Positions 28,380 to 32,952 of a DNA stretch of 56,491 bases are shown one piece after another. Source of the stretch: Desulfurococcaceae archaeon (GTDB lineage: Archaea > Thermoproteota > Thermoprotei_A > Sulfolobales > Desulfurococcaceae); contig JAGDWI010000001.1 of the NCBI GenBank assembly GCA_023269825.1, positions 1 through 56,491 on the forward strand, in the 5' to 3' direction. A program made the translations under genes and the position numbers. The notes below the pieces were generated by a model. The model ran no database searches. It saw only the letters and a list, made by a program, of their open reading frames with translations, and was not told the DNA's origin. Within the stretch, counting starts at the first letter, position 1. Every line of letters starts with the position of its first letter.

Positions 28380-29810
28380 TCACCCGAATGAAATAGGGGA
28401 GGGGAATTTCTTCCTGAAATCCTCGAGTTCTTCACGTGGCACTGTCGCCTGTTCTTTGCCTCTACGAGCTCTAGTTAGTAACGGTGAACTCCTGTATTCA
28501 TCCCATAGAAATCTCAGTGTTTTCTCCAATGTGCTTGAAGCATTCTCGGCTCTGGATCCATCACATAGTTTCGAAACAATGGATAACGCAGCTATTTTAC
28601 CCTCTAATATAGCAGTGGTTGCTTCCTCTATGCCTGAAGAGTCTCCTGCTACGTACATGTTGACAACGGTTGTCTCGAGATCGCGTGTTCTTATGGGTAC
28701 TAGTCCACCTAGCTCCGGGATATATTTCATTACAGCACCTGCTTGTGCGTGTAATCTCGCATCGGGTTCAAGGCCTACAGCCAATAGAACTAAGTCGACA
28801 TCGAATTCTTTCTCGGACCCCGGTACAAAATTAAGCTTGTCATCCACGGCTGCAACCACTGCTTTTTGAACTCGTGGATTTCCTTCCACATACTTTAAAG
28901 CGTGCCTAGTGAAAACTGGAACTCCGTACCTACGTATTTTAGCTGCATGAACAAACCAGCCCCCTATTTCACTTAAAATTTCAACCACGCCTTTCACTTC
29001 TACACCGGATTGTAGGAGCTGGTAAGAGATTATTAAGCCCACATTACCAGAACCAATAACTATGGATTTTTCACCGGGTTTAACACCGAACTCGTTCATT
29101 ATGGTTTGCGCGCCTCCCGCACCTATGACACCTGGGAGATCATTGTTTTGGAAATCTAGATATCGTTCTTGGGCACCAGTTGCAGCAATAACTGCTCTAG
29201 GTTTAATTATATAGTGTTTACTCTCATTGATAGCTCCCACGACTCCGCCTCTGAAAACTCCATAGACTACTGTATTAGTTAATACTTGAACGTTTCTTAA
29301 CTCGCTGATTTTTCTGGAGTATTCTTCAGCTATTTGGAAACCACGCATACCTCCGAAAAGCTCTACGTTACCGAAAAACTTATGCGTTTGCTTAAGTAAT
29401 TGACCCCCTAGTTTAAAGTGCTCATCTACTAAAACAACGTTTAATCCATAGTTCGAAGCAGTCAAAGCGGCTTCTAAACCAGCTGGTCCTCCACCAATTA
29501 TTAACAAGTCGGGGTTTAACTCCACGATTTCCGAGTGCTTGTCCATTAGATGTATTGCCTCGGGAGCAACCCATCCTCTTTGTCTTTCAACTTTTAAACC
29601 GTCTTTAACGGGTATTCTACAGGATTTCACGTTAGGTAAACCATTTATTGACATAAAACAGTTACTACACTTACCGATCATGCAGAATGGTCCACGAGGC
29701 CTCTTCAACTTATGGCTCCAGGAAAACACATCGACTCCTAGAGCATATAAAGCCACCGCAACACTTTCTCCTTCATAAGCTTCAACAGGTACTCCTTCAA
29801 AATCAAACAC
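28380..29810 (-). CDS. pdhA: FAD/NAD(P)-binding oxidoreductase with N-terminal 2Fe-2S domain, probable L-proline dehydrogenase alpha
   Basis: At least 476 residues. The N-terminal ~95 residues have the C-M-I-G-K-C-S-N-C-F motif of a ferredoxin-like [2Fe-2S] domain. Then come two Rossmann motifs (I-I-G-G-G-P-A-G-L-E near 105-114 and V-I-G-S-G-N-V-G-L-I). The family N terminus (D-R-R-I-Y-D-H-P-I-L-T-F) continues upstream to ~29870 with no ATG/GTG/TTG in that frame. An ATG at 29878 behind GGTGAT is one frame off, so a 1-base shift in the first codons is likely. Alternatively translation begins at GTG 29810 and the first strand is lost. Confidence 0.72.
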   Translation of the reverse strand: MFDFEGVPVEAYEGESVAVALYALGVDVFSWSHKLKRPRGPFCMIGKCSNCFMSINGLPNVKSCRIPVKDGLKVERQRGWVAPEAIHLMDKHSEIVELNPDLLIIGGGPAGLEAALTASNYGLNVVLVDEHFKLGGQLLKQTHKFFGNVELFGGMRGFQIAEEYSRKISELRNVQVLTNTVVYGVFRGGVVGAINESKHYIIKPRAVIAATGAQERYLDFQNNDLPGVIGAGGAQTIMNEFGVKPGEKSIVIGSGNVGLIISYQLLQSGVEVKGVVEILSEIGGWFVHAAKIRRYGVPVFTRHALKYVEGNPRVQKAVVAAVDDKLNFVPGSEKEFDVDLVLLAVGLEPDARLHAQAGAVMKYIPELGGLVPIRTRDLETTVVNMYVAGDSSGIEEATTAILEGKIAALSIVSKLCDGSRAENASSTLEKTLRFLWDEYRSSPLLTRARRGKEQATVPREELEDFRKKFPSPISFG

Positions 29811-31826: not shown

Positions 31827-31880
31827 AATCAGTGATCGAGGGCCTCTTCACCCTTCAGGCAAACCCTGCCTACATCACCT
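31827..31880 (-). ncRNA. C/D-box guide sRNA
   Basis: On the minus strand: box C GTGATGT (31878-31872), a 13-base guide, D' CTGA (31858-31855), a 3-base spacer, C' GTGAAGA (31851-31845), a 12-base guide and box D CTGA (31832-31829). All four boxes are at archaeal spacing and D and D' are perfect. By the D+5 rule predicted targets are a C in UGAU-C-GAGGGCC and an A in GCAA-A-CCCUGCCU. The G+C-rich RNA stands out in an A+T-rich gap and has a TATA element. Confidence 0.82.
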
Positions 31881-31902: not shown

Positions 31903-31913
31903 CTTATATTTTC
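31903..31913 (-). promoter_or_regulatory. TATA element of the C/D-box sRNA
   Basis: The minus-strand sequence GAAAATATAAG lies about 24-30 bases before box C of the sRNA at 31827-31880. This spacing puts the transcript start within a few bases of the first box. The same AAATATAAGC text lies 26 bases before the first box of the sRNA at 2100-2156. Confidence 0.6.
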
Positions 31914-32076: not shown

Positions 32077-32952
32077 TCATAATTCGTGTTGTTCTCCTTT
32101 AAGTCTCGGGTTTAGTTCTCTTTCAAGAGCTCTCCCAGTCATCATGAGAGCAAGCGATAACATAACTAGTAGGAAACCGGGCGGAATGAAATACCACCAT
32201 TTACCAGATGCTAAGGAACCTGAAACATATGCGTAATATAGAATTGTCCCTAAGTTTAGTTCCTCAACGGATCCTACTCCCATGAATACTAACGCAGCAT
32301 ATGAAAATATAGCGTTTGGTATTGATAAAATAGTTAAAGCTAGTGTCATTGGGATAACGGATGGAAATATGTGTTTACGAATAATCCTTAGATCCGAGGC
32401 TCCCAGTGCTTTAGCCGCCTGCACGAATGGTAATTCCTTGACTGATAGAACAATAGATCTTATTACTCTCGCTATTGGGGCCCAGCTAAGTAATGCTATT
32501 ATGAGGATCACTGATAATATTCCTGACGCAAAAATGGAGCCCATGACTATCATTAATACAATAGCTGGTATCGCGATTAAGAAATCTACTACTCTTGAAA
32601 TAACCCAGTCTATTAAGCCATTGTAATAACCGGAGATTATTCCCATTAGTAAACCTATTATTGACGCCAAGATAGCTGATAGTAATCCCACGAGTAGAGT
32701 TGATTTTAAAGCGTAGAGATTCAAGGAGAGAAGGTCTCTTCCCATTTCATCTGTTCCAAGTAAGTGTTTAATAGAGGGTGGTTTAAGTATGCTGGAGGTG
32801 TCTGTATCGTATACCCCATATGGAGCTATATACGGTGCCGTTAAAGCTAAGATTACGAATAATGCAGTTATCGCTAAACCTGCTTTCATGTCGCTGTTTC
32901 CTTTGATAATGTAGGCTATTGATTTATAGTATGAATTATTGGCTTTTCTCAA
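32077..32952 (-). CDS. dppC: Peptide/oligopeptide ABC transporter permease (DppC-like)
   Basis: 291 residues, about six membrane helices. A cytoplasmic N terminus precedes the first helix and the L-L-G-T-D-E-M-G-R-D-L-L loop typical of DppC. The EAA loop is A-K-A-L-G-A-S-D-L-R-I-I-R-K-H. It pairs with the upstream DppB-like gene, overlapping it by 4 bases. No ATPase genes lie in the window, so these must be encoded elsewhere. Confidence 0.9.
   Translation of the reverse strand: MRKANNSYYKSIAYIIKGNSDMKAGLAITALFVILALTAPYIAPYGVYDTDTSSILKPPSIKHLLGTDEMGRDLLSLNLYALKSTLLVGLLSAILASIIGLLMGIISGYYNGLIDWVISRVVDFLIAIPAIVLMIVMGSIFASGILSVILIIALLSWAPIARVIRSIVLSVKELPFVQAAKALGASDLRIIRKHIFPSVIPMTLALTILSIPNAIFSYAALVFMGVGSVEELNLGTILYYAYVSGSLASGKWWYFIPPGFLLVMLSLALMMTGRALERELNPRLKGEQHEL

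Follow-up and report, generated by a model that had tools for sequence, protein, structure and literature searches.

An archaeal double-guide C/D-box sRNA whose two guide modules appear to have exchanged order at least twice

Introduction

The best described relatives of the element analysed here are the archaeal double-guide C/D-box sRNAs. These have four boxes, guides of 12 to 13 nt, a short k-loop spacer and target bases set by the N+5 rule. Their two guides can direct modification of nearby rRNA sites. Most rRNA-targeting dual guides of Pyrobaculum are reported to hit sites within 100 nt of each other (Lui et al. 2018, cited in PMC7994747). Archaeal C/D sRNAs also circularise (PMC7994747, PMC9014305); the former paper cites Starostina 2004 and Danan 2012 for this. 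In Methanopyrus kandleri, Dennis et al. (2015; PMC4644070) described sR88, in which a circular rearrangement relative to sR39/sR119 has put the two guides in new positions. That RNA is a diverged paralogue, confined to one species, in which one target has been lost. The same authors suggested that guide modules are fluid. Circularly permuted genes are known for other RNAs, including a tRNA of Thermofilum pendens (PMC3218864) and the SRP RNA of Thermoproteus (PMC4731332).

Here we analyse a locus in a 56,491-nucleotide stretch of DNA from a Desulfurococcaceae archaeon (hereafter the window). The element shows no difference in anatomy from the double-guide C/D sRNAs, and it has two nearby rRNA sites as they do. 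The order of its modules is unlike that of most of its orthologues. As with sR88, both guides have undergone a circular rearrangement. Unlike sR88, the orthologues described here retain both guides, occur in both orders in many species and reflect two separate swaps. The permuted tRNA and SRP RNA genes also have their 3' and 5' parts reversed, but those RNAs need re-joining, whereas a C/D sRNA, being near-symmetric, should function in either order without ligation. Our literature search, outside which lay the Lui et al. (2018) survey and sRNA supplementary tables, found no archaeal work that prints the guide sequences and no account of orthologues persisting in both orders. The sRNA or its order swap may already be listed in that survey or in the Sulfolobus or Ignicoccus sRNA tables.

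Results

The element has the anatomy of a double-guide C/D-box sRNA

The element occupies 50 nt of the minus strand, from box C to box D (positions 31829 to 31878). Read from 31878 to 31829, the sequence is GTGATGT-AGGCAGGGTTTGC-CTGA-AGG-GTGAAGA-GGCCCTCGATCA-CTGA. Box C (GTGATGT, 31872 to 31878) is followed by the 13 nt guide 1 (AGGCAGGGTTTGC, 31859 to 31871) and box D' (CTGA, 31855 to 31858). The AGG spacer, corresponding to the k-loop, lies at 31852 to 31854. Next are box C' (GTGAAGA, 31845 to 31851), the 12 nt guide 2 (GGCCCTCGATCA, 31833 to 31844) and box D (CTGA, 31829 to 31832). The sequence-only reading that drew attention to this locus had listed exactly these boxes, guide lengths, spacer length and strand. 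It had also described a G+C-rich island in an A+T-rich gap and, consistent with this, the G+C content is 0.54 within the element compared with 0.24 to 0.28 immediately outside. Whether strict or loose, a four-box pattern search of both strands of the window returned only this site. A possible TATA box (AATATAAG, 31903 to 31910, minus strand) was picked out by inspection, rather than by any statistic, some 28 nt upstream of box C. A similar element is seen, again by inspection, in the sister genome G007.

We next compared the element with Rfam. The snoPyro_CD model (RF00095) aligns over its full length, at 58 of 58 positions, with E = 9e-5 when a 151-base stretch is searched. The element matches the box layout of this family, but its score of 29.6 bits is below the gathering score of 45; the sR3 model scores 18.5 of 41. 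At the gathering threshold neither the window nor any of seven homologous loci gave an sRNA match, and membership of a known Rfam C/D family, which takes a score at or above that cut-off, is not assigned. The host genome encodes fibrillarin (PF01269, E = 7e-104) and Nop5 (PF01798, E = 1e-75), in genes that adjoin each other on contig C3. A weak model match elsewhere on that contig (C3:321526) lies inside a protein-coding ORF and is therefore not a second copy of the sRNA.

Homologues occur across the class in two module orders

When relatives were first searched with the DNA sequence, other genomes from the genus and the family proved to share the boxes and guides but not the flanks. We then built a model, R1, consisting of half 1, half 2 and half 1 of the sRNA, so that the model coordinates of a match reveal the gene order. 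R1 was used to search 229 genomes of the class. Strong matches were found in about 100, including all 8 of the 8 genomes of the window genus. Both modules are present in approximately 96 genomes. By inspection of fetched sequences and box parsing, 22 of these have the window order and 74 the swapped order. The window order is restricted to the window genus (8 genomes) and the family f3, which contains Ignisphaera (14 genomes). R1 matches in genus g36 of family f6 (G080 and G082) resemble conserved protein-coding sequence and were left out of the counts.

A scan of the wider collection placed homologues in Desulfurococcales, Ignisphaera, Staphylothermus, Pyrodictiaceae and other Thermoproteota. 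Non-archaeal pattern matches in the same scan were unrelated G+C-rich sequences with no second module. The boxes, guide lengths, spacer and conservation are all those of an archaeal box C/D sRNA. With a pattern unique in the window and homologues across the class, the original reading as such an RNA stands, and on sequence grounds we regard it as near certain. The locus is a real and conserved double-guide gene of ordinary anatomy.

The guide-2 module is also found in other company. Several f2 genomes (L248, L250–L253, L257, L265) retain it with a replaced partner guide, for example GTAATCCGC, and in two f6 genomes (L256 and L258) it takes second position beside a different partner. Contigs of Methanomethylicota and Aigarchaeota (L135, L137) carry it with other partner guides. 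Its presence outside the class is a hint that guide 2 may be older than the class.

Both guides match adjacent sites in 16S rRNA

The window begins with the 3' end of 23S rRNA (positions 1 to 226), at the contig edge. This is the only rRNA in the assembly, which breaks inside the rRNA operon. Since the 16S of the organism itself is absent, as is most of its 23S, targets were tested on the rRNAs of relatives. The 16S genes of the window genus (L050, L051, L052) span 2.0 to 2.6 kb over the Rfam model, implying introns.

Nearly all relatives have CCCUCAAACCCCGCCG..GUUGGGAUCGAGGGCU, or a close variant, in 16S rRNA. Both guides fit this region, with the fifth base upstream of D or D' opposite the target and the two target bases 19 nt apart. 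They align near E. coli A1288 (guide 1) and U1307 (guide 2), a numbering that may be off by one as the reference copy is 1541 nt long.

Guide 2 forms 10 to 11 contiguous pairs with 16S GAUCGAGGGCU in most relatives tested, and places the C of GGAUCGAGGGCU five bases from box D. In G044, G047 and G175, which represent two families, a change to GAGGAC in 16S is compensated by GTCCTC in the guide. G.U intermediates of this pairing also occur among relatives. Taken alone, guide 2 of the window is equalled on 16S by 29 of 1000 shuffled guides.

Guide 1 of the window pairs with CAAACCC and GCC of 16S, and a single C.A mismatch separates the two stretches. The mismatch is gone in G004 and G006, both congeners, and in the distant G065, all of which have GGCGGGGTTT; their guide 1 pairs with CAAACCCCGCC or UUAAACCCCGCC over 10 to 12 nt. 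The predicted site is the third A of UCAAACCCCGCCG, also given as the third A of UCAAACCCC. By itself the score of guide 1 on 16S is not significant, being reached by 290 of 1000 shuffled guides. As the shuffled guides illustrate, prediction from a single sequence is weak. The target assignments rest on comparative evidence, which is firmer for guide 2. On that evidence, a guide 2 target at the C of GGAUCGAGGGCU is well supported, and a guide 1 target at the third A of UCAAACCCCGCCG is probable.

We also considered that the RNA is a C/D sRNA whose guide 1 targets 23S rRNA (GCAAGCCCNRCCU) in this organism, rather than 16S. In the sister genome G007 the 23S site GCAAGCCCTACCT does outscore the 16S site (9.3 compared with 8), and box-adjacent bases also pair. 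However, methylation would then fall on the G of a G.U pair, and the 23S site varies among relatives where the guide bases stay constant. Conversely, the guides of G004, of G006 and of other families pair fully with a 16S site that is near-invariant. We consider a 23S target unlikely and retain the 16S assignment.

These results bear on the bases proposed from the window alone, a C and an A. Both are the N+5 bases of 16S sites in relatives, and both guides find a match in rRNA. The C is upheld by the compensatory changes, while the A, given its one mismatch, is probable. The target strings put forward were reverse complements of the guides, and the true 16S sequences, UCAAACCCCGCCG and GGAUCGAGGGCU, differ slightly from them.

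The swapped order is linked to a HIT-family gene

To describe the surroundings of each copy we use gene names (HIT, threonine ammonia-lyase-like, aminotransferase-like and FAD oxidoreductase-like) that we assume from sequence motifs and general knowledge. In 47 genomes the swapped copy lies directly 3' of a HIT-family gene or begins inside its 3' end. The four families concerned are the window's own (outside the genus), Sulfolobaceae and two others. In Sulfolobaceae the copy spans the junction between the HIT gene and a threonine ammonia-lyase-like gene, and the HIT reading frame terminates in the TGA of a D box. Copies in the outgroup families f12 and f14, and in Pyrodictiaceae (f10), have an aminotransferase-like gene as downstream neighbour. 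G009 and G010, from the window's family, have the HIT gene upstream and the same aminotransferase-like gene downstream. These shared neighbours indicate that the swapped order at the HIT locus is ancestral.

In the window genus, no sRNA separates the HIT gene from the next gene, which stands directly beside it. The sRNA is at another locus, in the window downstream of an ABC-transporter-type permease ORF (32077 to 32952, minus strand) and about 2 kb before a FAD-dependent oxidoreductase-like ORF (28380 to 29810, minus strand), both named from sequence and given as context only. In G003 and G005 the sRNA is shortly before the homologous oxidoreductase-like gene, which is thus part of the genus locus. 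The HIT 3' ends of the Ignisphaera-containing family (L286, L291, L290, L289, L293, L283) bear an unrelated four-box C/D candidate on the opposite strand. In G143 this is ATGATGTTATGTAGCAAATCTGATGTGTGATGATGGGCTCTAATCTGA. The candidate overlaps the 3' end of the very gene that, in other genomes, harbours the ancestral sRNA.

Whole modules appear to have been permuted twice

The relationships of the host genomes were taken from an EF-2 tree, which is a tree of one protein with some weak deep nodes. The window genus is nested in its family; its sister group there is g10 (support 0.996), a genus whose copies have the swapped order. The second family with the window order, f3, is far away, beside f5 and f2. 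These placements point to two independent swaps. Consistent with this, parsimony on 46 tips gives two changes from a swapped-order root; G137, whose EF-2 is on a very long branch, was omitted from the event count. Both clades with the window order have departed from the HIT locus. The converse fails: copies of f2 and f5 have the swapped order although they, too, lie outside the HIT locus.

Box variants were then compared between orders. Guide 2 is followed by a CTGA D box in every parsed f1 copy, in either order. Guide 1 is often followed by a degenerate D box in both orders (CCGA, CGGA, ATGA or CAGA). Similarly, the C box is mostly TGAAGA or TGAGGA before guide 2, and TGATGA before guide 1, in both orders. 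Thus, the variants belong to modules, not positions, and their travelling with the guides indicates that whole modules were permuted. Most copies of the window genus also share with their swapped relatives the A of GGCAGGG, which is unpaired against the 16S target; convergence on a target would not produce it.

These observations also bear on another possibility, that separate modules were reassembled into the window-order sRNA, or that it arose afresh under selection for the same two bases. Modules evidently exchange, given the guide-2 module with other partners in f2, f6, Aigarchaeota and Methanomethylicota, and module mobilisation has been proposed before (PMC4644070). However, each module retains its own box variants in both orders, and the non-pairing A of guide 1 is common to most window-genus copies and swapped relatives. 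We judge such an origin improbable. The alternative that we favour, circular permutation of an orthologous gene, is well supported by the sequences compared. It appears to have occurred two or more times, on each occasion with relocation in the genome. In f3 most guide 1 sequences do not have the tell-tale mismatch, and there the arrangement could in principle be convergent.

There was no 1.5-copy or tandem remnant next to any copy, only a few guide-like motifs on the opposite strand, and no genome was found with both orders. In some swapped-order genes (L230, L237; L198, L242) the spacer between modules is 13 to 22 nt, too long for a k-loop, and both motifs may form full k-turns.

Discussion

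A chance four-box pattern in A+T-rich intergenic DNA, with no RNA gene, is so improbable that it can be set aside in practice: boxes and guides are conserved across many genera while the flanks diverge, and 0 of 200 dinucleotide-preserving shuffles carry the pattern. We are instead highly confident that the element is a double-guide sRNA most likely serving two 16S sites, descended from a HIT-linked ancestor and permuted and relocated in both the window genus and the Ignisphaera-containing family.

Once transcribed, the sRNA would fold into a k-turn (C/D) and a k-loop (C'/D') and bind L7Ae, Nop5 and fibrillarin. Fibrillarin would then be led to 2'-O-methylate two bases of the helix 41/42 region of 16S rRNA, separated by 19 nt. 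Guide 2 would direct it to the C of GGAUCGAGGGCU and guide 1, probably, to the third A of UCAAACCCCGCCG. Since the two sites lie side by side, both may be held by a single particle during folding.

The ancestral sRNA resided at the 3' end of the HIT-protein gene with the guide-2 module first. In an ancestor of the window genus, the HIT-linked copy was lost and the sRNA reappeared elsewhere, its two C-guide-D modules exchanged in order. The same swap appears to have occurred separately in the Ignisphaera-containing family. Three routes fit: a circular form was opened, a DNA circle was excised and inserted again, or the gene was duplicated in tandem and lost its outer halves. That swap and relocation coincide in both cases slightly favours a mobile circle, though two cases are few. 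We offer only tentatively, as less likely than not, the wider proposal that C/D sRNA genes of Thermoproteota change locus via a circle, of ligated sRNA or of DNA, opened at either module junction. The copies of the window genus and the Ignisphaera-containing family would then be two openings at the other junction, coupled to relocation.

The sRNA belongs to a known class and is ordinary and well conserved; the interest lies in the ordered history of its gene. C/D sRNA genes are thought to move and recombine. Here, an orthologous series retains both guides through two reversals of order, each accompanied by a new locus, and this makes the route of movement testable. If moves go via circles, the swapped order would be expected only with relocation. 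Moreover, since each guide-box module occurs at either position, the series provides a natural test of whether the terminal and internal RNPs are equivalent.
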